Source of the DNA: an uncultured Bacteroidota bacterium | GTDB lineage: Bacteria > Bacteroidota > Bacteroidia > Bacteroidales > P3 | Assembly: GCA_902791695.1 (NCBI GenBank) | Contig: CADAWR010000018.1 | Location: 1-37,277 of the forward strand | DNA length: 37,277 nt | Direction of reading: 5' to 3' | Program-made: the position numbers and the translations under genes | Notes under the pieces: model-generated | Databases searched by the model: none | What the model saw: the letters and a program-made list of their open reading frames with translations, nothing else | Told to the model about the DNA's origin: nothing | In this document: piece after piece, positions 1,465-36,240 of the stretch | How the letters are laid out: the number at the start of each line of letters is the position of its first letter | Position numbering within the stretch: the stretch's first letter is position 1

Positions 1465-1508
1465 TTGCTCCCCTATTGCTCCCCTTTTGTTCCCGTTTTG
1501 GGTGCCTA
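1465..1508. repeat. 11-bp phased intergenic array, divergent region 1
   Basis: Near-identical units beginning TTGCTCCCC, TTGCTCCCC, TTGTTCCCG and TTGGGTGCC start at 1465, 1476, 1487 and 1498, an exact 11-bp period. The array sits between divergent higB and the DUF6266-like gene. Weaker 11-base phasing may extend to both sides (about 1410-1560). The rest of the 300-bp spacer shows no gene. See the arrays at 11189, 22351 and 36166. Confidence 0.75.
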
Positions 1509-1596
1509 TATGGTAACTCTATACTAAATATACTGTTCCTCCGTTCTTCATTATATCAGATTGTATTCAGATTCCCTTCGGGGTAATACCTATACT

Positions 1597-2385
1597 ATGG
1601 CAAAGGTAAGACCATCCATCATAGAGCAGACGGGTACCATCGGCGACCGTGTCTTCTACACCCGCTTCGGCAAGCAGTTCAGTCGCAGCAAGGCCACATC
1701 GTTCAACGACAACAAGTCGGAGGCGCAGCTGCGGCAGCGTGCGCTCTTCAAGGCCATGCAGCACACCTCCTCCATCCTCGGCTCCGTCATCCAGCGCGGT
1801 CTCGCCAAGGAGGCCCACGCCCACGGGCATGTCGAGAACAACGAGTTTGCCAAAATCAACAAGCAATGCTTCACCTACGCCGACGGCACGGTGCATATCG
1901 ACTACCCCCGCCTGATTCTCTCCACCGGCCCGATAGCCCGCGTGGATTTTACCAATTGCCATGCCGATGGCCTGCATGTGGAGCTACAGTTCGAGCCCTA
2001 CATCGGAGCCAATCATGCAAACCTCGACGATGTAGTCTTCATCTATGCTGTCGAGTTTCAGGTGGAGGTCTGCCAACTCGTGGCCTTTGCCGAGCGGCGA
2101 GCCGCCAGCGTCGCCTTCGACCTGCCCGACCTCAGCGATGAAACCGACAACCCCATCACTTTACTTGGCAGTGACGTTACTTCATCTCGGCATAGCAATC
2201 AAGCTTGCTTGCGCTCGACTTCCGTAACGTTCCATCTCTATGCCATCGTCGAGGCCGCCAATACCGCCTGCGTCTCGACCCTCTCCCCCGACGAGAAGAA
2301 AGCCGACAAGAGCCATCGAAATATCAACCGCCGTGTGTCGCCGTCGATATTCATCGGCACCATTACAGTTGGCTCAGCTAATTGA
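1597..2385 (+). CDS. DUF6266-like protein of unknown function, with inserted element
   Basis: 262 residues from ATG 1597; an upstream in-frame TTG at 1561 is less likely. The N-terminus (MAKVRPSIIEQTGTIGDRVF, then YTRFGKQFSRSKA) resembles the start of the Bacteroidetes DUF6266 family, whose function is unknown. That is followed by a stretch of the form NKSEAQLRQRALFKAMQH. I see no signal peptide or membrane segment. The C-terminal half includes a segment (DVTSSRHSNQACLRSTSVT, from 2171-2230) that looks foreign and coincides with a palindromic DNA element inserted in frame. The gene ends just before the promoter of the Bro-N gene. Its divergent neighbour is higB. Family assignment is moderate because it rests on the first 60 residues. 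Confidence 0.7.
   Translation: MAKVRPSIIEQTGTIGDRVFYTRFGKQFSRSKATSFNDNKSEAQLRQRALFKAMQHTSSILGSVIQRGLAKEAHAHGHVENNEFAKINKQCFTYADGTVHIDYPRLILSTGPIARVDFTNCHADGLHVELQFEPYIGANHANLDDVVFIYAVEFQVEVCQLVAFAERRAASVAFDLPDLSDETDNPITLLGSDVTSSRHSNQACLRSTSVTFHLYAIVEAANTACVSTLSPDEKKADKSHRNINRRVSPSIFIGTITVGSAN
2174..2230. repeat. 57-bp palindrome-ended element inside the DUF6266-like gene
   Basis: The element is bounded by perfect 7-base inverted repeats (ACGTTAC at 2174-2180, GTAACGT at 2224-2230). Its length is 57 bp, 19 codons, so the reading frame survives. Inside it is the sub-palindrome-like AGCAATCAAGCTTGCTTGCG. From memory, closely similar translated strings occur in unrelated Bacteroidetes proteins, which suggests a dispersed small repeat. 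A short direct repeat (ACGTT...CATCTC) occurs at both ends. Confidence 0.55.
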
Positions 2386-2386
2386 T

Positions 2387-2417
2387 TTTGCTGTGTCAGA
2401 AAAAAAGTGTATCTTTG
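2387..2417 (+). promoter_or_regulatory. Promoter of the Bro-N/DinD-like gene
   Basis: TTTG at 2387-2390, a 19-base spacer, and TATCTTTG at 2410-2417 match the Bacteroidetes consensus exactly. It lies 21 bases before the ATG at 2439 and just after the preceding stop. Confidence 0.85.
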
Positions 2418-2438
2418 CAGTCGAAATAACATAAAAGA

Positions 2439-3302
2439 ATGCGTACTGAGAATATGACCCAGCAGAACGCCATACAGATATTTGAAGGCAACCAGGTTCG
2501 CGTTGCATGGAACGAAGAGGAAGAGAAATATTATTTCTCCATCGTTGATATTGTGCAGATATTGACCGACAGCAAGGATGTCAAGCAGTACGTCAAGCGT
2601 ATGCGTGCTCGTGATTCAGAACTCAATGCCAGGTGGGGTACAATTTGTACCCCTACTGAAATGACAGCCGCCGATGGAAAGAACTACAAGACCCAGGCTG
2701 CCGACCTTGAAGGAATATTTCGCATCATCCAATCCATTCCTTCCAAGAAGGCGGAACCCATCAAACAGTGGCTCTCCGAGGTTGGCGCGCAACGCATTGA
2801 CCAGATGATCGACCCCGAGTTGACGTTCCAGATGGCCGTAGAGGATTACCGCCGTCAAGGGTATAGCGAACGCTGGATAGAAAACCGTCTCAAGTCCATA
2901 CGCACGCGCAAGGAACTGACTGACGAGTGGGAGCGTTCGGGGGTGAAAGAGCAGAAAGACTTCGCCATCCTGACCGACATCCTCACCAAGGCGTGGAGCG
3001 GTATGAATACAGGTGAATACAAACGATATAAGGGGCTTACGAAGGAGAATCTGAGAGACAATATGACCACCCTTGAGCTGGCTTTGAACACGTTGGCTGA
3101 AGCTGCCACCACCGAGGTATCGCGTAACCGTAATCCGAAGACCATGCAGGAGAACAAGCAGGTGGCACAGAGTGGCGGGAAAGCAGCCAAAGTGGCCCGC
3201 GAGGAGGTGGAGAAGCAGGTGGGCCACAGCGTCATCTCCCGTAAACGAGCCTCCGATTACCTGCTGCCTACGGAAGACGCTGAAATAAAAGAAATAGAAT
3301 AA
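2439..3302 (+). CDS. Bro-N domain, DinD-like protein
   Basis: 287 residues. A Bro-N (phage antirepressor/baculovirus BRO N-terminal) domain occupies about residues 8-115: IQIFEGNQVRVAWNEEEEKY, FSIVDIVQIL, MTAADGKNYKTQAADLEGIF. The rest (PELTFQMAVEDYRRQGYSER, LTDILTKAWSGMNTGEYKR, ALNTLAEAATTEVSR) resembles DinD-type proteins. Related DinD in E. coli is a DNA-damage-inducible RecA inhibitor; this protein's role in Bacteroidales is not established and the link is inferential. It is a single gene from its own consensus promoter; an alternative ATG lies at 2454. A Bro-N domain also heads the Fic protein at 9497 and a stub at 8397, so this domain recurs within 8 kb. No truncation is visible. Confidence 0.85.
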   Translation: MRTENMTQQNAIQIFEGNQVRVAWNEEEEKYYFSIVDIVQILTDSKDVKQYVKRMRARDSELNARWGTICTPTEMTAADGKNYKTQAADLEGIFRIIQSIPSKKAEPIKQWLSEVGAQRIDQMIDPELTFQMAVEDYRRQGYSERWIENRLKSIRTRKELTDEWERSGVKEQKDFAILTDILTKAWSGMNTGEYKRYKGLTKENLRDNMTTLELALNTLAEAATTEVSRNRNPKTMQENKQVAQSGGKAAKVAREEVEKQVGHSVISRKRASDYLLPTEDAEIKEIE

Positions 3303-3317
3303 TATTGCAAAATTTTG

Positions 3318-3325
3318 TATCTTTG
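3318..3325 (+). promoter_or_regulatory. -7 promoter box upstream of the first Fic gene
   Basis: TATCTTTG at 3318-3325 is followed by GCA, as at other promoters here; no convincing -33 TTTG was found at the right distance. Transcription from it would give a leader of about 160 bases before the Fic ATG at 3490. That leader holds a short hairpin (GGTGGT 3390-3395 with ACCACC 3399-3404). It also holds a 12-base direct repeat (AAGGTGGTATGA at 3388 and 3452). Confidence 0.5.
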
Positions 3326-3330
3326 CAGTC

Positions 3331-3399
3331 GATAAATCTACGGAATATCACGAAGTAATCAACGGAGAAACTGCGATATTTGCCTCAAAGGTGGTATGA
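3331..3399 (+). pseudogene. Possible 22-codon gene stub without a start codon
   Basis: The frame reads DKSTEYHEVINGETAIFASKVV then stop, directly after a -7 promoter box. It has protein-like composition but no start codon, and I do not recognise the family. Position and size resemble the stubs at 8287 and 8397, so it may be the residue of a replaced gene. It could equally be chance. Confidence 0.25.
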
Positions 3400-3489
3400 C
3401 CACCACTTAAATAGGTAGTATATACAATAAAAACGAAAGAAGTGCGTTAGTAAGGTGGTATGAACCCCATATAATATAGTGGTACGCTT

Positions 3490-4563: not shown

Positions 4564-4580
4564 ACATTGCTCTACTTTCG

Positions 4581-4588
4581 TATCTTTG
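4581..4588 (+). promoter_or_regulatory. -7 box upstream of the restriction-modification gene
   Basis: TATCTTTG at 4581-4588, followed by CA, lies 22 bases before the ATG at 4611. No good TTTG sits at the expected -33 position. Confidence 0.55.
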
Positions 4589-4610
4589 CAAATTGCAAAT
4601 ATAGAACAAT

Positions 4611-8269: not shown

Positions 8270-8286
8270 GAATAAAACAACAAAGA

Positions 8287-8358
8287 ATATCAAATATAGC
8301 CAAGACCAACCGCATAGAATTCAAACGAGAACTGACCGACGACCTTGACATTGAATAG
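8287..8358 (+). pseudogene. N-terminal stub of an AlbA_2-domain (RecG-like/Schlafen-type) gene
   Basis: The frame IAKTNRIEFKRELTDDLDIE then TAG matches the first residues of Bacteroidetes AlbA_2 (formerly AAA_4) putative DNA-binding proteins, which normally continue with EKEVVAFLN. It stops where that continuation should begin, and there is no ATG. It looks like the leftover 5' end of a gene whose body was lost. Assignment rests on about 18 residues. Confidence 0.6.
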
Positions 8359-8396
8359 TTAGTGAATAATGGACTGCATGAATATATTTAACGACA

Positions 8397-8468: not shown

Positions 8469-8488
8469 AAGCAAAAAATAAGAGAAAA

Positions 8489-9448: not shown

Positions 9449-9496
9449 AATCCGTTAAAAAAACAATGTTGTAATTCGAGAGTACAAATTACGACA

Positions 9497-10348: not shown

Positions 10349-10700
10349 CTATTTCCGGATAAACTGCGAGTCTGTCTCAGGTTGGTCGGCGGGGGTGTAG
10401 CGGGCGACGGTCATGTGGAGGTCGTATTTCTCGCGGAGGGCGGCGATGGTGGCCATCATGGGGGTGGCGTGGTGGCGGTCGATGGCTTCCTGGCTGGCCC
10501 AGCTAGCGCAGGTTGCCCTCCTCGGCGCGGATGGCGGCGACGGTGCCGCTGGCGGTCATCTCCTCGGCGAACTTCAGGGCGTTCCCGTCAACGCCGGTAT
10601 ACTTTATGTTTACTGTTATCGGCATCTCTTTCTCGTTGTTGTCCCCACAGCAAGCGGACAAAAGGGCCATTGCCAGGAGGGTTGTCAGAATATGTTTCAT
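10349..10700 (-). pseudogene. Broken lipoprotein with antibiotic-biosynthesis-monooxygenase (quinol monooxygenase) domain
   Basis: From ATG 10700 the frame gives a lipoprotein signal (MKHILTTLLAMALLSACC) and the first part of an ABM domain (ITVNIKYTGVDGNALKFAEE, AIRAEEGNLR), then stops at 10503. The missing C-terminal part continues in another frame right after the stop: WASQEAIDRHHATPMMATIA to FIRK, ending at 10349. Between them the segment normally linking NLRYE to DSW is absent. One internal deletion of roughly 50 bases at about 10,500-10,506 explains both the loss and the frameshift. Intact relatives are putative quinol or NAD(P)H-dependent monooxygenases. The start overlaps the cupin stop (ATGA), so the pair was once a coupled operon. 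Confidence 0.8.
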
Positions 10701-11077
10701 AGTTCATCGGGGTGTTGTATCGACAGAGGCATATCCTTCTGCGAGAGGTAGAACATGTAGAGGATGGCGGGCTTGGGGCCGCGGTTCTCGCCGTGGTGGA
10801 CGGTGCCGACCATCTCGACCACTGCCTCGCCCTCGTGGACCACCTTCTCGGTGCCGTCCTGGGCGACGATGGTAAGCTCGCCTTGTGTCAGCACACCGAA
10901 GTTCATCACCTCGTGGTGATGCCATCCCAGCTTGCAACCTGCTGGAAACACATACTTCAAGGCCACCAGCTCGGGGCGCCCCTGCAGATAGTCGGGCAGC
11001 TCCACGCCGTCCCAGCTCTGCGAGGTGCGGAAGAGCTCTTGGGTCTCAACAATTTCCATATCCGGGTTAGTCTTCAT
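10697..11077 (-). CDS. Small cupin-domain protein
   Basis: 126 residues forming one cupin beta-barrel. Motif 1 is GCKLGWHHHEVMNFGVLTQG with candidate metal ligands His53, His54 and His55 plus Glu56; motif 2 carries GTVHHGENRG (His94/His95). Single-domain cupins of this sort bind a divalent metal, but their substrates are usually unknown. No signal peptide is evident, so it is probably cytoplasmic. It is transcribed from the consensus promoter at 11115-11148. The downstream quinol-monooxygenase-like gene, coupled by a 4-base overlap, is broken, so the two-gene unit is probably degenerating. The catalytic role is unassigned. Confidence 0.85.
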   Translation of the reverse strand: MKTNPDMEIVETQELFRTSQSWDGVELPDYLQGRPELVALKYVFPAGCKLGWHHHEVMNFGVLTQGELTIVAQDGTEKVVHEGEAVVEMVGTVHHGENRGPKPAILYMFYLSQKDMPLSIQHPDEL

Positions 11078-11114: not shown

Positions 11115-11148
11115 TGCAAAGTTACGCATTATTTTCTATGTGGCCAAA
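11115..11148 (-). promoter_or_regulatory. Promoter of the cupin gene
   Basis: On the minus strand TTTG (11148 to 11145), a 20-base spacer and TAACTTTG (11124 to 11117) followed by CA match the Bacteroidetes consensus. The ATG is at 11077. Confidence 0.8.
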
Positions 11149-11177
11149 AATATTTAATCATTTTGCTGTGTTGTGAC

Positions 11178-11290
11178 ACCGTATTCCCTCCGTACCCGGT
11201 CCGTACCCGCTCCGACTGTTCACCGGTTGTTTAACGGTTTTTGGTCGGAGGGGGTACGGAGAGGGTACGGAGAAGGTGCGGAGAGGAAAG
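11178..11290. repeat. 11-bp phased inverted array, divergent region 2
   Basis: On the left, TCCGTACCC starts at 11189 and 11200 and TCCGAC at 11211. On the right, GGGTACGGA starts at 11252 and 11263 and AGGTGCGGA at 11274, all at exactly 11 bp. The two sides are reverse complements: TCCGTACCCGCTCCGAC at 11200-11216 pairs with 11244-11260 with one mismatch, across a 27-base centre containing GTTCACCGGTTGTTTAACGG. The centre is also phased (TGTTCACCGGT, TGTTTAACGGT). It lies between the cupin and recX promoters. Confidence 0.85.
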
Positions 11291-11297
11291 GGATGTC

Positions 11298-11376: not shown

Positions 11377-11407
11377 TTTGGTGTTTGAAAAAAAAGTTGT
11401 AACTTTG
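11377..11407 (+). promoter_or_regulatory. Promoter of recX
   Basis: TTTG at 11377-11380, a 19-base spacer and TAACTTTG at 11400-11407 followed by CA. The recX ATG is 24 bases further on. Confidence 0.85.
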
Positions 11408-11431: not shown

Positions 11432-11923
11432 ATGGCAGAAGAATTCCGCAAGAGTCAGTCCTACAAAGCGCAGCTGGACAAGGCGCGGTGCTGGTGCGCC
11501 GCAGAGGAGCGCTGCGAGAGCGGTGTGAGGGAGAAGCTTGTGGCGTGGGGTGCCGGTGCGGACGATGCTGACGAGATAGTGGCAGCATTGCGTGAGGAGG
11601 GTTACCTCGACGATGTGCGCTATGCGCGTGCCTATTGCGAGAGCAAGGTGTTGCATCAGCACTGGGGTCGCCAGAAGGTGCTCTATCAGCTGAGGCTGAA
11701 GCGCCTGCCGCGAGAGGCGATAGAGGAAGGGATGGCTGCGGTGGATGAGGAGCAGTATATGGAGATGCTACGAGAGACGGCGGAGAAGAAACAGCGTGAG
11801 CTAAGTTGGAAAAGTGAAGCAGGGAGTGTTGAGGTGAGGCGGAAGATGATGGCTTTTCTGGCGTCGAGGGGATTCACTATGAGCGAGATAAACGAAGTAA
11901 TAACTAAAATAAAAAAACAATGA
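11432..11923 (+). CDS. recX: RecX-family regulator of RecA
   Basis: 163 residues from ATG 11432. The frame is open further upstream, but that part is the G-rich spacer and lies before the promoter. The RecX helical repeats are visible: AEERCESGVREKLVAWG, IVAALREEGYLDDVRYARAY, CESKVLHQHWGRQKVLYQLR, LPREAIEEGMAAV. RecX binds RecA filaments and limits their extension, restraining recombination and the SOS response. Its stop overlaps the ATG of the DUF3078 gene by 4 bases, so the two are coupled, although DUF3078 has no known link to recombination. recA itself is not in the window. Length and repeat order are normal. Confidence 0.88.
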   Translation: MAEEFRKSQSYKAQLDKARCWCAAEERCESGVREKLVAWGAGADDADEIVAALREEGYLDDVRYARAYCESKVLHQHWGRQKVLYQLRLKRLPREAIEEGMAAVDEEQYMEMLRETAEKKQRELSWKSEAGSVEVRRKMMAFLASRGFTMSEINEVITKIKKQ

Positions 11924-19157: not shown

Positions 19158-22100
19158 TCAGGCGCCGACGACAGATATTGTGGGGGAGACGTAGAGCAGG
19201 TATCCGCTGACCTGAGGGTAGCCCATGTCGATGAGGGCTTTGCAGTAGGCCTGCACCTGGCTGCGGTGTTCGTTCATAGGGGTGCCGGTCTTGAAGTCCA
19301 CCACCCAGGTCTCTGTGGGTGTGAGCACCACGCGGTCGGGGCGTCCGCGGCGGCCGTCGGCCACCAGGTCGCACTCGTTCTTGGCCGTGTATTCGGGGCT
19401 GAAGAAGCGTGCCGTCTGCGTGTTTTCCACCACGCGGCGAGCCAGTGCTCCCAGCTCCGCCGTCTCCTCGTCGCTCAGCTGGCGGCTCACGGCGAAGCGC
19501 TTTATGGCCTCGTCGACGTCGCCGGCATGCTGCACGGTGGCCAGCAGGTCATGGGCGTAGATGCCGAAGCGTCGGCGGTCCTCCAGCAGGGGAGTGAGAG
19601 CCTGCTCCGACGGCGACGCGATGCTCACGTGCTCGCTCCAGTCGGCGAAGGAGAGCCGTGCGAGTTTCTCCACCTGCTTTCCCTTGGTTTCGCCGCTACC
19701 GGTACGTCGGCAATCCTTGTCGCCACGCTGGCAGCCCTGCGGTGCGAAGGCGGCCAGCAGGGTGGGGTAGCGCCGGTCGTGCTCCGGTGGATTCTTGATG
19801 TCGGCGGGGTCGGGGCAGAAGATATACAATTGTTCCTTGGCGCGCGTGAAAGCCACGTACATGATGTTGAGCTCGTCCACCTCGGCCATGCGCTGCTCCT
19901 CGCGGCGCTGTTGCTCGAAGAGGGTGCGCTCGCCTGCGCTGAGGTTCACTATGGTGGTGGGCAGCCGCTTACCGTCGCCGCCGAGGCTGGCGTCGGGCTC
20001 CACCCACAGCTCGGCGGCGTGCTCGCTGCGGAAGAAGAGAGGGCAGATGACCACAGGCTTGCCCAAGCCCTTGGACTTGTGGATGGTGAGCAGCTGTACG
20101 GCGTCGATGTCGTCCGAGGCGGCAGCCGACAGGTTCTTCTGGTCGTCGAACCACTCGAGGAAGTCAGCCACCTCCTGGCGGTGGCGGGCCGCAAAGGCCG
20201 CCGCGCGGTTGAGGAGCGACGCCACATAAAGGCTGTCGATGCCGTCGAGGTGCAGCTCGCGCACCACCTCCTCGCAGCAGTCGTAGAGGCTCATCGACGA
20301 CAGATAGTCGAGGTCGAGGCTGCCCTGCACGCCCAGCGCTTCGAGGCGCATGCGCAAGTCGGTCTGTGCCACGCGGTCGTCGCGGTTCACCACCAGGCGC
20401 AGCGCCGCTACTATGGCCATCACGGCATGGCTCTTGCTGAGGTAGAACGACTCCGTGGAGGTCTGCCGCACCTCGGGACGGTGCTCGGCGAGCCAGCCGC
20501 TCACCGCCGCCAGCTCCACGTTGGTGCGGGTGAGCACCGCTATGTCGCCATAGGCGTAGCCGCGCTCGTCGTGCAGCATGGTGATGGTGTCGCCTATGCG
20601 CTGATGTATGGCCTCGCGGGCGTTCTTGAAGCCGCCGGCCTCGATGGCGCTTTTGTCCACGAATGAGAGCTCCACATAGCCCTCCTGACCTTTGACCACC
20701 TGCTGGCGCAGCTCCTCGCTGCCTTCGGGCAGGAGGCTGCCGTCGGCGGCACAGCCTATGTATATGGCCTGAGCCAGCGGGTTGTCGGTATAGACATGGC
20801 GTGCCAGCCAGGCGAAGAACTCGTTGTTGAAATCCACCACCGCCTTGGCGCTGCGGTGGTTGCTGGCGATGTTGCGCACCTCGTAGTTGCCGCGCATGGA
20901 GAGCGTCTGCCCATGGTGACGCATGCCCTCGACGCGGGGCAGGCGCACGAACTGAGCCACGTCGCCCTGGCGGAAGCGGTAGATGCTTTGCTTGCCATCG
21001 CCCACCACCAGCGACGCCTCGCCCTGGCTGATGCCGTTCTCAAGCAGCGGCACCATGTTGTGCCACTGCATGATGGAGGTGTCCTGGAATTCATCTATCA
21101 GGAAATGGCGGTAGCGGTTGCCGAGGCGCTCGAATATGAAAGGCGCCGGATTGTCTTCGTCTTCCACCATACGGTTTATCATGCGGTTGAAATCGCTCAG
21201 GTGCACCATGTCGTTGTCGCGGGCGTAGAGGCGCATCTGGCGGTCGAGCTCGCCGAGGAGTGCCACAGCGTAGAGCTTGCGGCGCAGTGCGCGGCAGCTG
21301 TTGCGGCGCGCCAGCAGCTCGAGCACACGCTCATAGTTGCGGTGCAGCACAGGGGCCGCGGCGGCAGTGTCCTCGGCAAGGTATTCGTCGCATTTGCTGC
21401 TGCAGAACCGGTCCTCCTCGAAGGAGGTCACGGTGTACTTGCCGGGCTCGTCGTATACGCCCGCGGCGAGTTTGGTGAAGTAGCCGTAGAAACCGCGCTT
21501 GCCCTGGTAGCAGAGCCCCTCGTCGAGGCCCACGGCCTCCAGCTCGTCGAGGACAGCCTTGCCGCACCGGCGCAACTCCTCCTCGGTGGCGCGCAGCGTG
21601 GCGGTATAGCTGTCGTGCACCTCGCGGAAGTCACTGAGGGAGAACCCCTCGAGCTGCTTCAGATGCTCGCCGATGTCCTCGTTGAACAGCTGTCCTGCCA
21701 GCTGGGTGACGAGGCGCTCGATATTGTAGTCGTTGTCCTCCTCCATCTCGCTGTCGGCGAAGGCTTTGAGGATTTCTGTCAGCTCCTCCTGCCCCTCGGT
21801 GCCGGCGAGCGACATCAGTTGTGCCACAGCCTGTCCGGTGAGCTCCTGAGCATCGAGAGTCACGTCGAAGTTCATCGGCTGGCCGAAGTCGTGGGCGAAG
21901 GTGCGCACGATGCGGTGCGTAAAGCTGTCGATGGTGCTGACGGAGAGGTCGCTGTAGCGGTGCAGGATGGTGCTGTAGAGCTTGCCGGCCATGCGCTGGA
22001 GGCTCTCGGGCGAGAGCTTGCCCTCCGACTCGCGCAGCAGGTCGCTGCCCATGCCCTTGCCCTCGGGGTCGGCGGGAGTGGACGCCATAGCCTCCAGCTC

Positions 22101-22289
22101 GCCGAGTATGCGATCCTTCATCTCCGCCGCCGCCTTGTTGGTGAAAGTGATGGCGAGGATGGAGCGCACGCCCTCCGCCAGGCGGCCTTCGCCCAGCGAG
22201 AAAGCCATCCTAAGGTACTCCTTGACAAGCGTGTAGGTCTTGCCTGCGCCTGCCGACGCCTTGTATATGAGGAACGGGTTTTGTGCCAT
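19158..22289 (-). CDS. AddA/RecB-like UvrD-family helicase with C-terminal nuclease
   Basis: 1043 residues from ATG 22289; earlier in-frame starts lie upstream of the -7 box at 22310-22319. Helicase motifs: Walker A ASAGAGKTYT (GAGKT at 14-18), ITFTNKAAAEMKDRI, the DExx motif FLIDEFQDTSIMQ, VGDGKQSIYRFR, LLTIHKSKGLGKPVVICPL, and MYVAFTRAKEQLYIF. A C-terminal PD-(D/E)xK nuclease is present: GRPDRVVL, VVDFKTG and QVQAYCKAL give the D, DxK and QxxxY elements. This is the architecture of AddA, which with AddB resects double-strand breaks for RecA loading. No AddB-type partner is in the window; it may lie elsewhere. Length is normal. The gene ends at the 112-bp repeats. Confidence 0.9.
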   Translation of the reverse strand: MAQNPFLIYKASAGAGKTYTLVKEYLRMAFSLGEGRLAEGVRSILAITFTNKAAAEMKDRILGELEAMASTPADPEGKGMGSDLLRESEGKLSPESLQRMAGKLYSTILHRYSDLSVSTIDSFTHRIVRTFAHDFGQPMNFDVTLDAQELTGQAVAQLMSLAGTEGQEELTEILKAFADSEMEEDNDYNIERLVTQLAGQLFNEDIGEHLKQLEGFSLSDFREVHDSYTATLRATEEELRRCGKAVLDELEAVGLDEGLCYQGKRGFYGYFTKLAAGVYDEPGKYTVTSFEEDRFCSSKCDEYLAEDTAAAAPVLHRNYERVLELLARRNSCRALRRKLYAVALLGELDRQMRLYARDNDMVHLSDFNRMINRMVEDEDNPAPFIFERLGNRYRHFLIDEFQDTSIMQWHNMVPLLENGISQGEASLVVGDGKQSIYRFRQGDVAQFVRLPRVEGMRHHGQTLSMRGNYEVRNIASNHRSAKAVVDFNNEFFAWLARHVYTDNPLAQAIYIGCAADGSLLPEGSEELRQQVVKGQEGYVELSFVDKSAIEAGGFKNAREAIHQRIGDTITMLHDERGYAYGDIAVLTRTNVELAAVSGWLAEHRPEVRQTSTESFYLSKSHAVMAIVAALRLVVNRDDRVAQTDLRMRLEALGVQGSLDLDYLSSMSLYDCCEEVVRELHLDGIDSLYVASLLNRAAAFAARHRQEVADFLEWFDDQKNLSAAASDDIDAVQLLTIHKSKGLGKPVVICPLFFRSEHAAELWVEPDASLGGDGKRLPTTIVNLSAGERTLFEQQRREEQRMAEVDELNIMYVAFTRAKEQLYIFCPDPADIKNPPEHDRRYPTLLAAFAPQGCQRGDKDCRRTGSGETKGKQVEKLARLSFADWSEHVSIASPSEQALTPLLEDRRRFGIYAHDLLATVQHAGDVDEAIKRFAVSRQLSDEETAELGALARRVVENTQTARFFSPEYTAKNECDLVADGRRGRPDRVVLTPTETWVVDFKTGTPMNEHRSQVQAYCKALIDMGYPQVSGYLLYVSPTISVVGA

Positions 22290-22309: not shown

Positions 22310-22319
22310 TGCAAAGATA
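22310..22319 (-). promoter_or_regulatory. -7 promoter box of the addA-like gene
   Basis: TATCTTTGCA on the minus strand (22319 to 22310) lies about 20 bases before the ATG at 22289. No good -33 TTTG was found. It decides the start codon by excluding the in-frame starts at 22340 and 22427. Confidence 0.65.
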
Positions 22320-22350
22320 CGAACTTTTTTTGGAATCCATGCCTATTTTC

Positions 22351-22493
22351 TCCGCCCCCTCTCCGTACCCGCTCCGACACATCGACGGTCGTTCTACGAC
22401 TGTTCTACGATAAAAACCGTTAAACAACCGGTGAACAACCGTAGAACAGTCGGAGAAGAGAGGGAGAGGGTACGGAGCGGATAGGGAGGTGTA
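22351..22493. repeat. 11-bp phased inverted array, divergent region 3
   Basis: TCCG starts at 22351, 22362 and 22373; GTTCTACGA at 22391 and 22402; CCGTTAAACAA, CCGGTGAACAA and CCGTAGAACAG at 22417, 22428 and 22439; then TCGGAGAAGAG and further G-rich units. All are 11 bases apart. The outer parts are inverted (CTCCGTACCCGCTCCGAC on the left against GTCGGAG...GGGTACGGAG on the right). The centre AAACCGTTAAACAACCGGTG is the reverse complement of the centre of the array at 11178. Confidence 0.88.
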
Positions 22494-22548
22494 GGGGTTC
22501 CGTTCAATTTTTTGTAGAGAAAAAATGGCAATATATATATTTTTTCGT

Positions 22549-22558
22549 ATATTTGCAT
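22549..22558 (+). promoter_or_regulatory. -7 promoter box of mutA
   Basis: TATATTTGCA at 22549-22558 fits TAnnTTTG. It lies 34 bases before the ATG at 22593. The -33 region is a weak match. Confidence 0.6.
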
Positions 22559-22592: not shown

Positions 22593-24452
22593 ATGGAAGA
22601 CAACAAGTTGTTCAGCGAATTCCCGCCCGTCTCGACAGAGAAATGGGAGGAGGTAATCAATAAGGACCTCAAAGGTGCCGACTATGAGAAGAAGCTCGTG
22701 TGGAAGACCATCGAGGGATTCAAGGTGCGCCCCTACTACCGTGCCGAGAACCTCGAAGGCCTTGAGTATCTTGACACCAACCCTGGTGAGAAGCCTTTTG
22801 TCCGCGGCAAGCATGTGGCCGACAACGTGTGGGAGGTGCGTCAGGATATCCACGTCAAGGACTTGGCTGAAGCCAACCGCATAGCGCTGGACGCTGTGCA
22901 GCGCGGTGCCACCTCGCTGGGTCTCTGCGCCAAGCAGGTGAGCAGCGTGGCCGACCTGGAGAAGCTCCTCAAGGGCATCTATATCAACGCAGTGAGCATC
23001 AACTTCATGTGCTCGGACGACTACCTGCAGCTGCTGAAACTCTACGCCGAGTATGCCAAGAAGAACGGCTACAAGGCCGAGGAGCTCTGCGGCTCGGTGG
23101 ACTTCGACATGTTCCGCTATGCCCTGAAGAACGGTAAGTTCCACCGTGGCGAGGAGGGTGACCTCCAGATGGCCAAGGAGCTGGTGGAGTATGCCCACGA
23201 CGCACTGCCGAAGTTCCGCGTGCTCGCCGTCAACGGCCAGCTGCTGCACAACAGCGGCTCGAACATCGTGCAGGAGCTTGGCTTCAGCCTTGCCGCCGCC
23301 AACGAGCTGGTGAGCCGTCTGACCGACATGGGCTGCAAGGCCCACCGTGTGGCTTGCCGCATACAGCTCAACGTGGGTGTGGGCAGCACCTACTTCATGG
23401 AGATTGCCAAGATACGCGCCGCCCGCCTGCTGTGGAGTAATATTGTGGAGCAGTACAAGCCCGAGTGCGACTGCGCCTACAAGCTCTTCATCAACGCCAC
23501 CACCAGCGCCTGGAACCAGTCGGTCTACGACCCCTATGTCAACATGCTGCGCTCCACCACCGAGGCCATGTCGAGCGCTGTGGCCGGTGCCGACTCGATC
23601 AGCGTGCTGCCGTTCGACAACGCCTACAAGGAGGCTGACGATTTCGGCTACCGCATAGCCCGCAACCAGCAGCTGCTGCTCAAGGAAGAGTCCTATATGG
23701 ACAAGATTGTGGACCCTGCAGCCGGCAGCTACTATATTGAAAACCTGACCGACGAGATAGCCAAGGGTGCCTGGGAGCACTTCCTGAAGGTGGAAGCCGC
23801 CGGCGGCATGTGCAAAGCCCTCCGCGCCGGCCTGGTGCAGGACGAGGTGGAGGCCACCGCGCACCAGCGCGACCTTGACATTGCCACCCGCAAGACCACC
23901 ATACTGGGTACCAACCAGTACCCCAACTTGCTGGAGAAGATGGGCGACAAGGTGGCCGCAGGCGAGAAGCACTGTTGCTGCTGCTGCGAGAAGGGCGACG
24001 AGGTGCGCGTGCTGAAGCCCTACCGTGGCGCCGAGGCCTTCGAGGAGCTGCGCATGCAGACCGAGCGTGCTGCCCGCCGTCCCAAGGTCTTCCTGCTCAC
24101 CTACGGCAACCTCACCATGCGCAAGGCGCGTGCCGGTTTTGCCACCAACTTCTTCGGTGTGGCAGGCTACGAGATTATCGACAACCCCGGCTTCGCCACT
24201 GCCGACGAGGGCGCCAAGGCAGCCCTGGAGAGCGGCGCCGACGTCGTGGTGCTCTGCTCGAGCGACGACGAATACGCCGAGCTCACCGAGCCCGTATGCA
24301 AAGCCCTCAAGGGCAAGGTGAAGAGCCTGGTGCTCGCCGGCTTCCCCAAGGAGATGGTGGAGACCTACAAGGGCTACGGCATAGACGAGTTCATACACGT
24401 GAAGACCAACGTCCTCGAGAGCCTCACCAACTTCCAGAAGCTGCTGTTGTAA
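22593..24452 (+). CDS. mutA: Methylmalonyl-CoA mutase small subunit
   Basis: 619 residues. The mutase TIM-barrel is recognisable throughout: VSTEKWEEVINKDLKGADYE, KKLVWKTIEGFKVRPYYRAE, RIQLNVGVGSTYFMEIAKIR, NATTSAWNQSVYDPYVNMLR, GADSISVLPFDNAYKEADDF, DKIVDPAAGSYYIENLTDEI. The C-terminal flavodoxin-like domain (PKVFLLTYGNLTMRKARAGF) has no DxHxxG cobalamin motif, as expected for the non-catalytic small subunit. With MutB it interconverts succinyl-CoA and methylmalonyl-CoA on the propionate route. mutB usually follows directly; here an LptF/G gene does, 7 bases later. Residues 461-465 are five consecutive cysteines in the interdomain linker, which is unusual. Confidence 0.95.
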   Translation: MEDNKLFSEFPPVSTEKWEEVINKDLKGADYEKKLVWKTIEGFKVRPYYRAENLEGLEYLDTNPGEKPFVRGKHVADNVWEVRQDIHVKDLAEANRIALDAVQRGATSLGLCAKQVSSVADLEKLLKGIYINAVSINFMCSDDYLQLLKLYAEYAKKNGYKAEELCGSVDFDMFRYALKNGKFHRGEEGDLQMAKELVEYAHDALPKFRVLAVNGQLLHNSGSNIVQELGFSLAAANELVSRLTDMGCKAHRVACRIQLNVGVGSTYFMEIAKIRAARLLWSNIVEQYKPECDCAYKLFINATTSAWNQSVYDPYVNMLRSTTEAMSSAVAGADSISVLPFDNAYKEADDFGYRIARNQQLLLKEESYMDKIVDPAAGSYYIENLTDEIAKGAWEHFLKVEAAGGMCKALRAGLVQDEVEATAHQRDLDIATRKTTILGTNQYPNLLEKMGDKVAAGEKHCCCCCEKGDEVRVLKPYRGAEAFEELRMQTERAARRPKVFLLTYGNLTMRKARAGFATNFFGVAGYEIIDNPGFATADEGAKAALESGADVVVLCSSDDEYAELTEPVCKALKGKVKSLVLAGFPKEMVETYKGYGIDEFIHVKTNVLESLTNFQKLLL

Positions 24453-32472: not shown

Positions 32473-34226
32473 TGCAGTGCTATTTGTGGTTTGTCAAAGG
32501 CTGTGCCGCTCTCTATGGTCACTCGTCCAGCTCGGAGCTTTTTACTCATCAGTCTATCATGTACAGCTTTAGCGTCGGTGTATTTTGGACATCTCACGGC
32601 TATGTTCACGCGGGGACGCTCCACGAGCCACTCTGCCAGCGCGTCGGTCACCATTTCCCCTTCCGTGGTCAGACGGCTACCGGCGAGGAAGGTGACGGCA
32701 AGTGGCGCCACGCTGTCGTACAGCGTTACGCTGGCTGGTATCTGACGGGCTTTCCCACATACGATGGAGGGCAGTGTGCCCTCTTTACTGAGGGTGATTA
32801 CATTGGTGTATTGCTCCGAGAGCATCATTACGGTATCTTGGCTGCTATCGCCGTGTTTAACTCTGATGCGGTGCAGTCGCATCGCTTCGGGACGCGCAGC
32901 AGGGTAGAGGTCGAACATCAGTATATCGGTACTTCGCGAGCCCTCGATGCGTCCTGCGAAGTACGCCCTTTTCCCGTCAGGAGCGACGCCGAAGCTCACC
33001 TCGTCCTCTTCGGTGTTTATGGGCAACCCAAGGTTGGTTGGACGGTTGCCGTAGGTGTCGTTGAGGTTGCAGAAGAAGATGTCGTATCCGCCGAAACTCT
33101 GCCAGCCGTTGCTGAGGAAATATAGTGTGTGGCCATCGGCAGCCAGAAAAGGCATCTTCTCGTTACCCTCGGTATTTACGGTGTTCCCTAGATTCTCCGC
33201 GCGGCTCCAGTCGCCGTTAGGCAGTCGGTGACAGCGCCAGATGTCTATACCCCCGTGTCCGCCCTTGCGGTTCGAGGCAAAAAGCAGTGTGCGCCCGTCC
33301 GGACTCACCGTCGGCTGCGATTCCCACGTCCGGTCGCCGTTCACCTGCGGTCCAAGCTGTTCGGGCTGTTGCCAACGGCCGTCGATACGGCGCACCCTGT
33401 AGATATCGCTGTTGGCGTACCCGCGCTCTTTCCGTATTATCGAGTAATACAACTCATTGCCGTCAGCGGTGATGCTTACGCTCCCCTCAGGGTCGCCGCT
33501 GTTGAATGGCGCCGGCATCTCTACTCCGCGACTGTAGCAGCTATCCTGCCACACGCTATAGCACAGCCTCCATTGTTTGTGTTCCAACTCGCGGTGGTAG
33601 AAGGTACGCCCCTCGTCCACGGGCATCTCTCGCAGATAGTAGAACGTGCGGCCGTCGGGACTGAGGTAGGGTAGCGCTTCGTTGTGCTTTGAACTTACGC
33701 CCACCACTCGCTGGGGGTCAAATGGTGCCATGTTGAGCATCGCTTCAGCCAGAAACTGTGACCAATACAGGTAGTTCGACGCCTCTTCGTACACAGCGCT
33801 CACCGCTTTGTCGTCGTTGTTGTTGGCTAACGCAAAGTATTGGTTGAGTTCAGCAACAGCGTCGTCGTATCGTTTGTCGGTGTAGTGTATCATCCCCATG
33901 TAGAAGTGGGCGAGGGCGTTGGGGTAGGTGGGGCAGAGTTCGATGCACTTGGTGAAATACTTCCGTATGCCTGTGGCGTTGAAGCCGTCGTGTACTGCCG
34001 TCATTCCGAGCCAGAACTGTGGGTCGGCAGCCTTGGGGTTACGTGAAGCTATCTTACGCAGCTCCACCCCAGCCGTCTTGAAGTTGCGGCTGTTGAAGTG
34101 CGCCAGTGCCTCCTCATACCGGCTCCGGTCTCCACTCTTTACCTTCACGCCGCACTGGGCCTGAACCAATGATGAATAATGGATGATGAATGATGAACAT
34201 AGGAGAAGTAAGAGGAAGTGAACCAT
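32469..34226 (-). CDS. Exported TPR/PD40 beta-propeller protein with degenerate OmpA-like end
   Basis: 585 residues from ATG 34226; a start at 34280 is possible but would translate an intergenic repeat. Signal peptide MVHFLLLLLCSSFIIHYSSL ending VQA-Q. TPR-like helices (about residues 30-150: YEEALAHFNSRNFKTAGVEL, YPNALAHFYMGMIHYTDKRY) are followed by WD40-like PD40 propeller blades (ALPYLSPDGRTFYYL, QPTVSPDGRTLLFASNRKGG, FGVAPDGKRAYFAGR). The C-terminus (VTDALAEWLVERPRVNIAVR, RLMSKKLRAGRVTIESG) is a weak OmpA-like domain. This resembles the TPR-PD40-OmpA proteins of Bacteroidetes such as the type IX secretion component PorE, but shorter; equivalence is not claimed. It overlaps the exporter gene by ATGA. 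Confidence 0.82.
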   Translation of the reverse strand: MVHFLLLLLCSSFIIHYSSLVQAQCGVKVKSGDRSRYEEALAHFNSRNFKTAGVELRKIASRNPKAADPQFWLGMTAVHDGFNATGIRKYFTKCIELCPTYPNALAHFYMGMIHYTDKRYDDAVAELNQYFALANNNDDKAVSAVYEEASNYLYWSQFLAEAMLNMAPFDPQRVVGVSSKHNEALPYLSPDGRTFYYLREMPVDEGRTFYHRELEHKQWRLCYSVWQDSCYSRGVEMPAPFNSGDPEGSVSITADGNELYYSIIRKERGYANSDIYRVRRIDGRWQQPEQLGPQVNGDRTWESQPTVSPDGRTLLFASNRKGGHGGIDIWRCHRLPNGDWSRAENLGNTVNTEGNEKMPFLAADGHTLYFLSNGWQSFGGYDIFFCNLNDTYGNRPTNLGLPINTEEDEVSFGVAPDGKRAYFAGRIEGSRSTDILMFDLYPAARPEAMRLHRIRVKHGDSSQDTVMMLSEQYTNVITLSKEGTLPSIVCGKARQIPASVTLYDSVAPLAVTFLAGSRLTTEGEMVTDALAEWLVERPRVNIAVRCPKYTDAKAVHDRLMSKKLRAGRVTIESGTAFDKPQIALQ

Positions 34227-34233
34227 TGTCCTC

Positions 34234-34271
34234 TCACTCCCTCTCACTCCCTTTTCACTCCCTTTCACTCC
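34234..34271 (-). repeat. Short tandem repeats upstream of the TPR/PD40 gene
   Basis: TCACTCC occurs at 34234, 34244, 34255 and 34265 (steps 10, 11, 10). The period is not a multiple of 3, which argues against translation from the start at 34280. A second imperfect array of ATGATGAA units (34168-34198) codes for the signal peptide. Confidence 0.75.
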
Positions 34272-34286
34272 ATTAAACATATTCCA

Positions 34287-35243
34287 CTACAATTTTGTTG
34301 GATCTATCTTGAAGTTTGCCATCTCGCCGTTGCAGGGGGTGGTGCAGCGTATGGCGCATTCGTCGCATGAGGGGCTGAGCTCCCCATGGAGGCGCTTCTT
34401 CACCATGTCGCCCACAGCGTCGCGCAGTGCGGGGATGGCGATGCCGCGTATCACCTCGTCGCAGAAGGCATAGCTGAGCATCGTCACTGCCGTGCGTTCG
34501 CTGATGCCGCGTGTCTGCAGGTAGAACTTCGCCTGCTCGTCGAGTTGCCCTATGGTCGAGCCGTGCGAGCACTTGACATCGTCGTTGTATATCTCCAGGA
34601 AGGGGCGTGTGTCAATGTGGGCTTTGTCGGTGAGCAGTATGTTGCGGTTTGTCATGTAGGCCTCAGTCTTCACCGCGCCGTCCTGCACCAGCACATGCCC
34701 GTTGAAGCGGGCTCTCGCCGCATCGTCCATGATGCCTTTATAGAGTTCGCTGCTAGTGCAGTGCGGTTTCGCATGCTCTACGAAGATGTAGTTGTCGCAT
34801 TCCTGCTCGCGGTCTATCAGGTAGAGCCCGTCGGCTTTGCAGCTGCAGCCCTCACCTTGCATGCGCACTATGATGTTGTTCCTCACGTGGCCGCCACCGA
34901 GGGTCACGGTGCACATCTCCAGTTGGGCGTCGCGCTGCATGTTGATGTGCAGTTGCGTCAGCTGACGCGCCGGAGTGTGAATACCCTGCAGACGGTAGAG
35001 CTTCAGATTCGCGCCCTCCTCCATTTCGACGTCCAGATTCTCCACATCCCCCATCACCTTATACCCACTCGAAGTCTCGAAGTCTTGAAGTCTCGAAGTC
35101 TCTATCATAAACATCGGCGCATCCTCAGGGTGACAGAGTACCAGCTGCATTGATTCTCCGCGCTGTACGGTAATCTGCTCTGCCGGTGCCTCACAGCGCC
35201 AGCCGTCGGTCCATACGTCGGGCAGTATGTCTTTCCTAATCAT
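34287..35243 (-). CDS. sufD: SufD-like Fe-S scaffold subunit, short form
   Basis: 318 residues, against about 430-450 for usual SufD. The SufB/SufD beta-helix core is present (YRLQGIHTPARQLTQLHINM, GLYLIDREQECDNYIFVEHA, HCTSSELYKGIMDDAARARF, LEIYNDDVKCSHGSTIGQLD, LQTRGISERTAVTMLSYAF). The normal N-terminal helical domain of about 120 residues is absent. SufD joins SufB and SufC in the SufBC2D scaffold. The C-terminus has CDECAIRCTTPC, a cysteine cluster I do not recall from typical SufD. The start at 35243 overlaps the sufC stop (ATGA), so the short form is not an annotation artefact. An 8-bp tandem repeat lies near its 5' end. Confidence 0.88.
   Translation of the reverse strand: MIRKDILPDVWTDGWRCEAPAEQITVQRGESMQLVLCHPEDAPMFMIETSRLQDFETSSGYKVMGDVENLDVEMEEGANLKLYRLQGIHTPARQLTQLHINMQRDAQLEMCTVTLGGGHVRNNIIVRMQGEGCSCKADGLYLIDREQECDNYIFVEHAKPHCTSSELYKGIMDDAARARFNGHVLVQDGAVKTEAYMTNRNILLTDKAHIDTRPFLEIYNDDVKCSHGSTIGQLDEQAKFYLQTRGISERTAVTMLSYAFCDEVIRGIAIPALRDAVGDMVKKRLHGELSPSCDECAIRCTTPCNGEMANFKIDPTKL
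35068..35099 (-). repeat. Four 8-bp tandem repeats inside sufD
   Basis: CTCGAAGT occurs at 35068, 35076, 35084 (one change) and 35092. The unit length is not a multiple of 3, so gain or loss of one copy would frameshift sufD near codon 50-58. It encodes TSRLQDFETSS. Confidence 0.9.
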
Positions 35244-35998
35244 TCTCCAAGCTCCTTTTTAATCCAGTCGTAGCCTTTCTCCTCAAGTTCCAGAGCCAGC
35301 TCTTTGGGACCGGTCTTCACGATGCGGCCTTCGTAGAGCACGTGCACAAAGTCGGGCACTATGAAGTCCAGTAGGCGCTGGTAGTGGGTGATGACGATGG
35401 TGGCGTTGTCCTTCGAGCGCAGCTGGTTGACACCGCCGGCCACTATGCGCAGAGCATCGATGTCCAGTCCGCTGTCGGTCTCGTCGAGTATGCTCAGCGT
35501 GGGGTTGAGCATGGCCATCTGGAATATCTCGTTCTTCTTCTTCTCGCCGCCGCTGAAGCCTTCGTTGACCGAGCGGTTGGCCAGGTTGGTGGTCATTTCC
35601 ACCACCTTCTTCTTCTCCTCCATCAGCTTCAGGAACTCGCTGCCGCTCAGCGGGTCGAGGCCGTGGTACTTGCGCTGCTCGTTGACGGCGGTGCGCATGA
35701 AGTTGGTGATGCTCACACCGGGAATCTCCACCGGGTACTGGAAACCGAGGAACAGCCCCTCGCAGGCGCGCTGGTCCACCGGCAGCTCCAGGATGTTCTT
35801 GTCTTTGAAAATCACCTCGCCGGCAGTGACGGTGTACTTGGGGTTGCCGGCCACCACACCCGCCAGGGTGCTCTTGCCGTTGCCGTTGGGTCCCATTATG
35901 GCGTGCACCTCGCCGCGGTTCACCTCGAGGTTGATTCCCTTCAATATCTCGCGTTCACCTATCGAGGCGTGCAAATTGCGTATAGACAATAGTGACAT
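35240..35998 (-). CDS. sufC: SufC, ATPase of the Suf Fe-S assembly scaffold
   Basis: 252 residues from ATG 35998; an earlier in-frame start at 36073 lies at or before the promoter. ABC ATPase of the SufC type: MSLLSIRNLHASIGEREILK, Walker A GPNGNGKSTLAGVV, the SufC-specific LFLGFQYPVEIPGVSITNFM, signature GFSGGEKKKNEIFQMA, Walker B LSILDETDSGLDIDAL, and VITHYQRLLDFI. It powers cluster assembly on SufB-SufD. It is the first gene of the minus-strand run and is coupled to sufD by ATGA. sufB, which normally precedes it, is not here; the divergent neighbour is ruvB. Confidence 0.96.
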   Translation of the reverse strand: MSLLSIRNLHASIGEREILKGINLEVNRGEVHAIMGPNGNGKSTLAGVVAGNPKYTVTAGEVIFKDKNILELPVDQRACEGLFLGFQYPVEIPGVSITNFMRTAVNEQRKYHGLDPLSGSEFLKLMEEKKKVVEMTTNLANRSVNEGFSGGEKKKNEIFQMAMLNPTLSILDETDSGLDIDALRIVAGGVNQLRSKDNATIVITHYQRLLDFIVPDFVHVLYEGRIVKTGPKELALELEEKGYDWIKKELGE

Positions 35999-36043
35999 AT
36001 TATGCTGCAATTGTTTGATTTTTATACAATAAAATACTATGTG

Positions 36044-36070
36044 GCCACACTGGCCGCTGTGGCAAAGATA
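36044..36070 (-). promoter_or_regulatory. sufC -7 box and leader hairpin
   Basis: On the minus strand TATCTTTG (36070 to 36063) is a consensus -7 box. The leader begins with a hairpin GCCACA/TGTGGC (36063-36058 with 36049-36044, 8-base loop) and is about 60 bases long. No good -33 TTTG was found. The hairpin could stabilise the mRNA or bind a regulator; neither is shown. Confidence 0.5.
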
Positions 36071-36165
36071 CAAAATTATTTTCGCACGCGCGAAAAAAAC
36101 ATCTCCTCAATGGCTCCATCCTCCCGCCTCCCTCCGCCTATCTCTCTATTTCTTAACTATAGTTT

Positions 36166-36240
36166 GACTTTCGTTTAACCATTATATATGGTTGAAGTAT
36201 GGTTGAACGATGGTTGAACTATGGTTGAAATGATGGAGGA
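36166..36240. repeat. 11-bp phased array, divergent region 4
   Basis: ATGGTTGAA starts at 36188, 36199, 36210 and 36221, exactly 11 bp apart, followed by ATGGAGGA at 36233. On the left GTTTAACCAT (36173-36182) is inverted relative to ATGGTTGAA. The flanks hold pyrimidine-rich (36118-36140) and purine-rich (36233-36260) tracts, also opposed. The array lies between the sufC and ruvB promoters. Confidence 0.88.

Follow-up and report, generated by a model that had tools for sequence, protein, structure and literature searches.

The window studied here is the whole of a 37,277-nt stretch, contig CADAWR010000018.1 of assembly GCA_902791695.1 from an uncultured Bacteroidota bacterium (Bacteroidales; P3), and it carries four intergenic arrays whose units are repeated at a step of 11 bp (Table 1). 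Arrays of this kind recur through the genome, in letters that differ between species, and lie close to one another less often than expected. For the scan, positional identity at a fixed lag was scored in 60-base windows; at lags 4-30 and at least 40 matches, exactly four lag-11 regions were returned, at 1462-1533, 11209-11294, 22407-22497 and 36152-36259, and the only other matches were at lags 9 and 27, inside one gene. Tandem Repeats Finder (TRF) gave period 11 at all four places, which confirms the four arrays with an exact 11-bp step claimed in the first-pass annotation. The same annotation had named a fifth divergent gene pair as lacking an array (SAM hydrolase/USP, 13805 to 13913, about 107 bp apart), and none was found there. 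Array 1, the leader of a DUF6266-like gene, is the least certain of the four. The start of recX is most likely at 11432, behind the TAACTTTG box at 11400-11407, and the apparent run of its open reading frame into array 2 is most likely spurious.

Table 1. Arrays of the window with their outward promoter boxes and neighbouring genes
Feature	Position	Strand	Layout or evidence
Array 1	1459..1537		11-bp units TTTTGCTCCCC drifting to TATATGGTAAC; lag-11 score 40/60; TRF period 11 at 1463-1500
Array 2	11169..11296		class A: (CTCCGTACCCG)n - short asymmetric core CTCCGACTGTTCACCGGTTGTTTAACGGTTTTTGGTCGGAG - (GGGTACGGAGA)n
Array 3	22349..22503		class A: two inverted half-arrays, AT-rich centre near 22405-22422
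Array 4	36145..36261		GGTTGAACTAT class, inverted arms about ATTATATAT
-7 box TAACTTTG, outward, cupin gene	11117..11124	-	left of array 2; TAnnTTTG scan
-7 box TAACTTTG, outward, recX	11400..11407	+	right of array 2; TAnnTTTG scan
-7 box TATCTTTG, outward, addA-like gene	22312..22319	-	left of array 3; TAnnTTTG scan
-7 box TATATTTG, outward, mutA	22548..22555	+	right of array 3; TAnnTTTG scan
-7 box TATCTTTG, outward, sufC	36063..36070	-	left of array 4; TAnnTTTG scan
-7 box TATTTTTG, outward, ruvB	36309..36316	+	right of array 4; TAnnTTTG scan
HigB-like toxin gene	977..1306	-	left neighbour of array 1; PF05015 7e-08
DUF6266-like gene	1597..2385	+	right neighbour of array 1; PF19781 E=0.0048, below curated cut-off
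Cupin gene	10697..11077	-	left neighbour of array 2; PF07883
recX	11432..11923	+	right neighbour of array 2; PF02631, PF21981; start by coding score and promoter
addA-like UvrD helicase/PD-(D/E)XK nuclease gene	19158..22289	-	left neighbour of array 3; PF00580, PF12705
mutA, methylmalonyl-CoA mutase subunit	22593..24452	+	right neighbour of array 3; PF01642
sufC-like ABC ATPase gene	35240..35998	-	left neighbour of array 4; PF00005; name sufC from the first-pass annotation
ruvB	36321..37277, runs off window	+	right neighbour of array 4; PF05496 1.7e-77, PF05491

Abundance and placement in the genome

The genome of the window (G000) is an assembly of 2.17 Mb in 37 contigs, with the window as contig C18; the contigs of all genomes used here are draft assemblies. 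A sample of 837 kb, 38.5% of the assembly with the window counted in, was scanned at a cut-off of 38/60 and lags 5 to 30. This gave 61 lag-11 regions versus 0-8 at any other lag; the 61 include halves of single arrays, and 57 are left after neighbours are merged. The scored array regions span 71-248 bp. A lag-11 array was present in 54 of the 237 spacers of at least 75 bp, and 0 arrays were found in each of 10 dinucleotide shuffles of these spacers, which excludes chance.

The arrays were seen in 26/68 divergent, 23/147 tandem and 5/22 convergent spacers. Genes were called by our own codon-usage finder rather than a standard program, and some loci upstream of mutA and sufC were miscalled; a false gene call at 36282-36662 put the spacer of array 4 among the tandem ones, and the corrected counts would be 27/69 divergent and 22/146 tandem. 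The confinement to divergent spacers that had been claimed is therefore seen in the window and is not supported across the genome. It had also been proposed that an equal frequency in tandem or convergent spacers would speak against the claim; there is a divergent excess, but it is not significant after length matching (21/30 divergent versus 16/35 tandem among spacers of 200-400 bp, p=0.08).

As a promoter proxy, we scanned for the TAnnTTTG box, which we take to be the Bacteroidota promoter -7 element. Among the 26 divergent arrays, an outward box stood on the right in 18 and on the left in 18, with inward boxes at 1 on the left and 2 on the right. Among the 23 tandem arrays, an outward box stood on the downstream side in 14 and on the other side in 2, with 4 and 2 inward boxes. 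No box lay inside any of the 54 arrays. The outward promoter 9-mer CAAAGATAC was found in 11 of the 98 flanks of 49 class A arrays (the main family, described below) and in 3 of 150 control flanks. The arrays thus occupy promoter-free DNA between transcription units; the earlier wording "between divergent promoters" is too narrow, as tandem and convergent spacers are included.

The neighbours of 10 arrays, taken from the 50 array spacers listed, were 20 genes of mixed kinds, among them recA, aminotransferases, feoB, a chaperonin and a TonB-type receptor. A DNA-repair regulon was considered, because recX, the addA-like gene, ruvB and recA border arrays, and was rejected because these 20 neighbours are otherwise mixed.

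Array families and their conservation between species

Arrays 2 and 3 share the exact 22-mer GTTCACCGGTTGTTTAACGGTT (C18:11218-11239 on the + strand and 22415-22436 on the - strand), which contradicts the earlier claim that the four arrays differ in sequence. Both belong to class A, in which outer units CTCCGTACCCG give way to inner ones (e.g. CTACGGTTGTT and CACCGGTTGTT); beyond a centre rich in AT, the order returns as the reverse complement. The class A core 22-mer had 167 matches in G000, 150 in G019, 1-2 in G015 and G023, and 0 in 57 of the 61 genomes searched, and the reversed control gave 0 throughout. A pattern of the G000 arrays had 424 matches, with 0 in the reversed control. Class A carriers in the public set were, among the matches listed, the uncultured Bacteroidales/Bacteroidetes RUG649, RUG12227, RUG061 and RUG279, whose "RUG" presumably stands for rumen uncultured genome.

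The units of different families are not wholly unlike. When 31 family units were aligned in all frames and on both strands, a shared degenerate 11-mer, ACGGTTCAACT, was obtained with an information content of 6.52 bits; 60 letter-shuffled sets aligned likewise gave 5.43 (sd 0.17), and none reached 6.52. The 31 units, one per array family from 18 genomes, were picked and typed by hand and include close relatives, which do not count as independent; some single units fit the 11-mer poorly. On this alignment the arrays belong to one superfamily of 11-bp-step repeats carried by many species of the genus, and common descent or a shared reader probably links its families. The first-pass annotation had suggested selection or a mechanism aimed at spacing rather than letters. 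This stands in so far as the 11-bp step is kept by species-specific families and unlike arrays keep their distance from one another, whereas its phrase "shared period without shared sequence" is too strong (6.52 versus 5.43 bits).

A dyad, that is, two inverted half-arrays, is frequent in G000, G082, G023, G012 and G029. Measured against the dyad, the GC phase was 4.8-6.5 bp in six of the seven palindromic groups and 3.6 in the remaining group, a single array; the set holds 77 arrays, 65 of them in one group, three groups are one array each, and no null was run. Mirrored triplets of class A were significant at unit 3 only in G000 (21/29 versus 10.8 by shuffling) and at unit 2 only in G082. At the class A centres of G000 (e.g. 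C3:9651 and C1:13005), 27 of 29 near-palindromes have TAA as innermost triplet on one side but not on the other, and none has it on both; mirroring was seen in 0 of 29, with 8.3 expected by shuffling. These elements therefore have an orientation; G082 is less strict. A shorter asymmetric class A core, CTCCGACTGTTCACCGGTTGTTTAACGGTTTTTTGTCGGAG, recurs little changed at C3 138555, 155249 and 260591, at C2 120754 and at window 11218, and looks like a younger subfamily. A hairpin or cruciform was rejected as the selected feature, because mirroring is found at one unit only, unit 1 is anti-mirrored in G000 and four species have no dyad above the shuffled level.

Stretches totalling 282 kb from another 20 genomes of the genus, some of them shorter than 5 kb, gave seven lag-11 arrays of other sequence, in 4 of the 20 genomes, and lag 11 was only modestly ahead there, with 7 versus 5 at the next best lag, lag 9. 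In 20 genomes from other families of the order (248 kb, several stretches short), no lag-11 array was found. Ten syntenic stretches of about 40 kb, one from each of ten genomes, were picked as orthologues of the array-rich window; one to five lag-11 regions were present in all ten, with units own to each species or clade. Lag 11 was commonest in nine of them; the exception was G091, with one array at lag 11 and two each at lags 9 and 18. G082 has 12 lag-7 regions beside its 29 lag-11 regions. In syntenic stretches L279-L282, leaders shared by arrays were noticed by eye, CACCTTCGCCTGATC-type in G072 and AGGGCAAGGGTTTTGCCCTGGTTTTAAGAGAGTCATC in G079, unlike class A.

The spacers upstream of sufC, mutA and recX hold arrays in G000 and G082 and, in other letters, in G023 and G090, while the cupin gene is the left neighbour of recX only in G000 among these four. 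The orthologue of array 2 in G082 is near-identical and about 10 bp shorter at one end. In G023 and G090, the spacer orthologous to that of array 3 holds an 11-bp array of other sequence, and a wholly different 11-bp array stands at the place of array 4, whose own class recurs at other G000 loci; in the sufC|ruvB spacer, flanking promoter sequence is kept up to the array edge. Of 30 genus genomes, 16 have an array in the 1.5 kb preceding mutA; 15 of these were identified by score, and the other is G000, where the gene finder miscalled the spacer. Upstream of sufC the count is 10 of 30, the neighbour not being ruvB in all species; the sufC-like protein itself had matches in 60 of 60 genus genomes searched, its own included. 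G082 is a close relative of G000 (median protein identity 93%); of the 11 array spacers compared, the two genomes have 9 in common, and 2 carry an array in G082 only. Minor copies of foreign families also occur, such as a G023-type array in G000 at C2:145380 and two class A core matches in G023. Species-specific families thus keep the 11-bp step; the letters differ between species, and the position can persist.

Array 1 may be a special case. In G023, an 85%-identical DUF6266-like homologue is preceded by nearly the same array, so array 1 may travel with its gene. The G000 sample has three DUF6266-like genes, and an 11-bp array outside class A directly precedes two of them (L042:17062-17409, which is C3 237062-237409, and window 1295-1596).

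The window has some further features. The part at 205-10345 is mobile-looking: it encodes a HigB/HTH toxin-antitoxin pair, a 1027-aa Eco57I/MmeI-like restriction-modification protein, two proteins with BRO-N domains and three with Fic domains, one protein being in both counts; for 6 of the 10 genes called there, blastp gave no match in the ten syntenic stretches. A 112-bp tandem repeat in about three copies lies at 18826-19146, between genes, with two Rfam Acido-Lenti-1 sRNA matches inside; three more such matches lie in locus L033. Short tandem repeats with periods of 7, 10 and 8 bp are found near sufC, between and inside genes, at 34168-34197, 34230-34271 and 35068-35102.

Spacing along the chromosome

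In G000 there is about one array per 12 kb, the median gap being about 11-13.5 kb at cut-offs 34-38. Gaps had a coefficient of variation (CV) of 0.47-0.55, against 0.79-0.82 when positions were chosen at random among spacers weighted by class and length. Strata and cut-offs of the spacing tests were chosen by us, and several nulls were tried, of which the range is reported. At cut-off 38, 1 of 51 gaps was below 5 kb. Among 145 spacers of at least 150 bp, 1 array pair lay within 5 kb versus 11.8-12.4 expected by label permutation within strata, and 0 of 4000 permutations were as low under each of three schemes. When spacers of 200-700 bp with GC of at least 0.50 were taken, 0 of 43 gaps were below 5 kb versus 9.6 expected. 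Among spacers of 250-700 bp, 15 of the 32 without an array had an array spacer in this size range less than 5 kb away, and no two of the 44 array spacers were closer than 5.7 kb.

The avoidance extends to arrays of unlike sequence. A class A array lay within 5 kb of 1 of the 15 non-A arrays versus 4.8 expected (P=0.015), and within 7 kb of 2 versus 6.8 expected (P=0.004); adding the 15 non-A arrays to class A lowered the CV from 0.63 to 0.49, i.e. made the spacing more even. Because unlike families avoid each other too, it is unlikely that the avoidance is caused by homologous deletion or by target immunity within a family.

In G082 (440 kb), 1 gap was below 5 kb, with P of 0.002-0.017, 0.03-0.07 or 0.04-0.59 depending on null and cut-off; for gaps below 8 kb, P was 0.001-0.03 at cut-offs 34-36 and 0.30 at 40. 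Contig C5 of G082 has 81 kb at about 93-174 kb (L292-L296) without an 11-bp array, mostly at GC 0.37-0.50 and partly non-coding by the host codon model, and this stretch looks like acquired DNA. In seven distant species pooled, represented by stretches of about 40 kb that were likewise picked as orthologues of the array-rich window, 0 of 11 gaps were below 5 kb versus 3.4 expected (P=0.0055) and 0 were below 3 kb versus 1.9 expected (P=0.09); with arrays outside the spacer set included, all 17 gaps were at least 6.2 kb. Taken together, arrays, those of unlike sequence included, are found less than about 5 kb apart more rarely than expected, and the median gap is about 11-13 kb in the two best-sampled genomes.

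Possible role of the arrays

We tentatively favour, without being confident of it, the view that the arrays are rapidly evolving platforms, in phase with the helix, on which a protein binds and which serve to organise the nucleoid or its supercoiling. Each array would be a platform for a protein or a DNA-wrapping enzyme, e.g. a gyrase-like topoisomerase, which would recognise a short degenerate motif at every turn of the helix and so meet all units on the same side. One platform per chromosomal stretch could then serve as a supercoil-domain boundary, a nucleoid anchor or a topoisomerase loading site. Because such a binder would read phase more than letters, unit sequences would turn over fast, while the pitch and the chromosomal spacing would stay. 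A repeat that merely settles in harmless sites has no reason to avoid its neighbours, and less so those of unlike sequence, and for this reason we place a functional class ahead.

The closest precedent is the E. coli gyrase motif together with the gyrase-cut BIME-2 (bacterial interspersed mosaic element). In the parts of the sources available, this motif is described as about 130 bp long, with degenerate letters and a 10.75-bp GC phasing that runs to both sides of a centre (PMC6379681, PMC12393610), and BIME-2 as cut by gyrase and as a possible contributor to genome organisation (PMC6379681). The arrays resemble the motif so described in their degenerate letters and may resemble it in length and in GC phasing around a centre; unlike it, they are true 11-bp sequence repeats, are not all centred, and are known here from sequence alone.

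Several results weigh against the binding-platform reading. Gyrase is expected downstream of genes, not between divergent promoters. In G000, 43 of 92 spacers of 200-700 bp have no array, and the dyad is at the shuffled level in G091, G079, G072 and G001 (1-5 arrays each). Array density is uneven over the genus, the contig starts of the 20 genomes having given only 7 arrays in 282 kb. Nor is the avoidance absolute: at cut-off 36 with every region counted, those outside spacers of at least 150 bp included, 5 of 59 gaps in G000 were below 5 kb, versus 23% expected and with 0 of 3000 simulations as low; one of the five lies inside a single spacer and another touches the 149-bp spacer at C9:95016. 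On spacers restricted by GC and length, the CV was marginal (P=0.10; 0.015-0.17 over five settings). The G082 deficit below 5 kb is borderline to absent (P 0.002 to 0.59), and the CV of this genome is not low unless the 81-kb low-GC stretch is dropped post hoc (then 0.41, with a median of 12.4 kb). In G023 (160 kb, other families) 0 gaps were below 5 kb, a number too small to use, and avoidance is strong in G000 and moderate elsewhere. Low-GC windows held 0 arrays in 8 windows of G082, 0 in 2 of G023 and 3 in 5 of G000; because of the last, a restriction to the core chromosome does not hold. Minisatellite-bearing elements of mobile look are also near at hand, namely the shared leaders of G072 and G079 and, in the available part of its description, BrickBuilt in Porphyromonas (PMC4596501). 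For the Y1 transposase of G082 described below, the low-GC arrays of G000 and the way in which the syntenic stretches were selected, we marked the functional reading and the undescribed-class view given at the end slightly down and the selfish or neutral rival slightly up.

This main rival, which we regard as plausible but not probable, is a selfish or neutral dispersed repeat: a family like a miniature inverted-repeat transposable element (MITE) or a minisatellite, which would be copied between loci, expand by unit slippage and survive only in non-coding, non-promoter DNA, its families waxing and waning and the 11-bp step being kept by descent. It agrees with the amplification of the class A core in few species (167 in G000, 150 in G019, 0 in 57/61 genomes), with the minor copies of other species' families that persist (G000 C2:145380; G023), with the degenerate unit common to the families, as by descent, and with the shared leaders seen by eye in G072 and G079. 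It does not predict the avoidance within about 5 kb, least of all between unlike sequences. Moreover, no leader or tail common to the class A arrays was found in G000, 9 of the 11 array spacers are common with G082, and neither of the 2 in which array presence differs, both with the array in G082, is a clean insertion. In a check for target-site duplications, short flank repeats scored 4.53 versus 4.13 (P=0.01), possibly from leftover unit sequence.

Repetitive extragenic palindromic (REP) elements, in the available part of the source, are palindromic and intergenic with more than 100 copies per genome (PMC2817692), and the arrays are like REP elements and BIMEs in having many dispersed intergenic copies and in being often palindromic. 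The REP unit, as given in the part of another source at hand, is an imperfect palindrome of 20-40 bp (PMC3733652), whereas the array unit is 11 bp and the arrays go in 11-bp steps. The arrays also differ from REP elements and BIMEs in being common between divergent promoters and in avoiding one another at about 5 kb. A search for the REP-associated tyrosine transposase (RAYT; Y1_Tnp, PF01797) gave 0 matches in G000 (assembly 95% complete) and G019 (81%) and 1 in G082, a class A carrier; 11 of 18 genomes gave a match, which shows that the search can find the gene. The RAYT/REP reading is weakened, given the lack of a Y1 match in class A-rich G000 and G019 against one in G082; for a selfish repeat in general, the G082 match counts in favour and the lack in the other two against.

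Porphyromonas gingivalis, another member of the Bacteroidales, has a repeat called BrickBuilt. In the available part of its description this is a MITE-type minisatellite with a 23-nt unit in 19 copies and a leader and tail with inverted ends, and its tandem units without spacers, its dispersal and its always intergenic position are like those of the arrays (PMC4596501). It differs in its unit, 23 nt against an 11 that is constant over many sequence families. Neither leader, tail nor terminal inverted repeats were found in the 98 class A flanks of G000, where the 25 commonest 9-mers were promoter-type or A/T-rich.

A purely mutational origin, in which slippage or hairpin template switching would favour a step of one helical turn in non-coding DNA whatever its sequence, is unlikely. 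The near-unit (10-bp) length difference between G000 and G082 upstream of recX, the drift of units along single arrays and the partly mirrored arms (unit 3: 21/29 versus 10.8) are in line with it. However, the 0 arrays in the 248 kb from 20 genomes of other families (several stretches short) mean that such a process would have to be genus-specific, the same families occur at dozens of loci, mirroring is absent from the innermost class A units of G000 (0/29 versus 8.3 expected), and the spacing is not predicted.

It is very unlikely that the arrays are local operators, sites for a response regulator of the PhoB/OmpR type controlling the adjacent genes. The pho box has 11-bp direct repeats upstream of promoters, and the arrays, with units that are likewise 11 bp, head-to-tail and beside promoters, do stand upstream of outward promoter boxes and adjoin recX, the addA-like gene, ruvB and recA. 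In contrast to the pho box, they have many more units, inverted halves, unlike sequences and no regulon logic; 61 array spacers in 38% of the genome with neighbours of many kinds, unit sequences that differ between close species, arrays in convergent spacers and a 5-kb avoidance without any reason all speak against operators.

Transcription terminators or RNA hairpins are the most improbable of all: the arms are inverted and in 15 of 23 tandem-labelled spacers (mislabelled array 4 included) the array starts at most 55 bp from the end of the left gene, but the same arrays stand between two outward promoters, untraversed by either transcript, several species have direct repeats only, and none of the 8 Rfam matches in five sources (window, L033, L057, L064 and L015) fell on an array.

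To return to the binding platforms, arrays of this kind were not found described in the literature among the matches listed (titles and abstracts). It is possible, although we consider it doubtful, that they form a previously undescribed class of chromosome-architecture site within one genus: phased degenerate arrays, about one for each supercoil-domain length, which would be recognised mainly by their pitch, so that the letters could turn over from one species to the next and leave pitch and long-range spacing unchanged. Supercoil barriers in E. coli have been estimated, in the available part of the source, at one per 10 to 100 kb, and the array spacing of about 12 kb falls at the short end of this range (PMC9071471). 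How bacteria set the boundaries of topological domains is an open question, and sites that can be read in the sequence, avoid one another at about 5 kb and recur about every 12 kb in the best-sampled genomes would supply candidate positions for them. If this view is true, selection here would act on helical phase and chromosomal distance instead of on letters.

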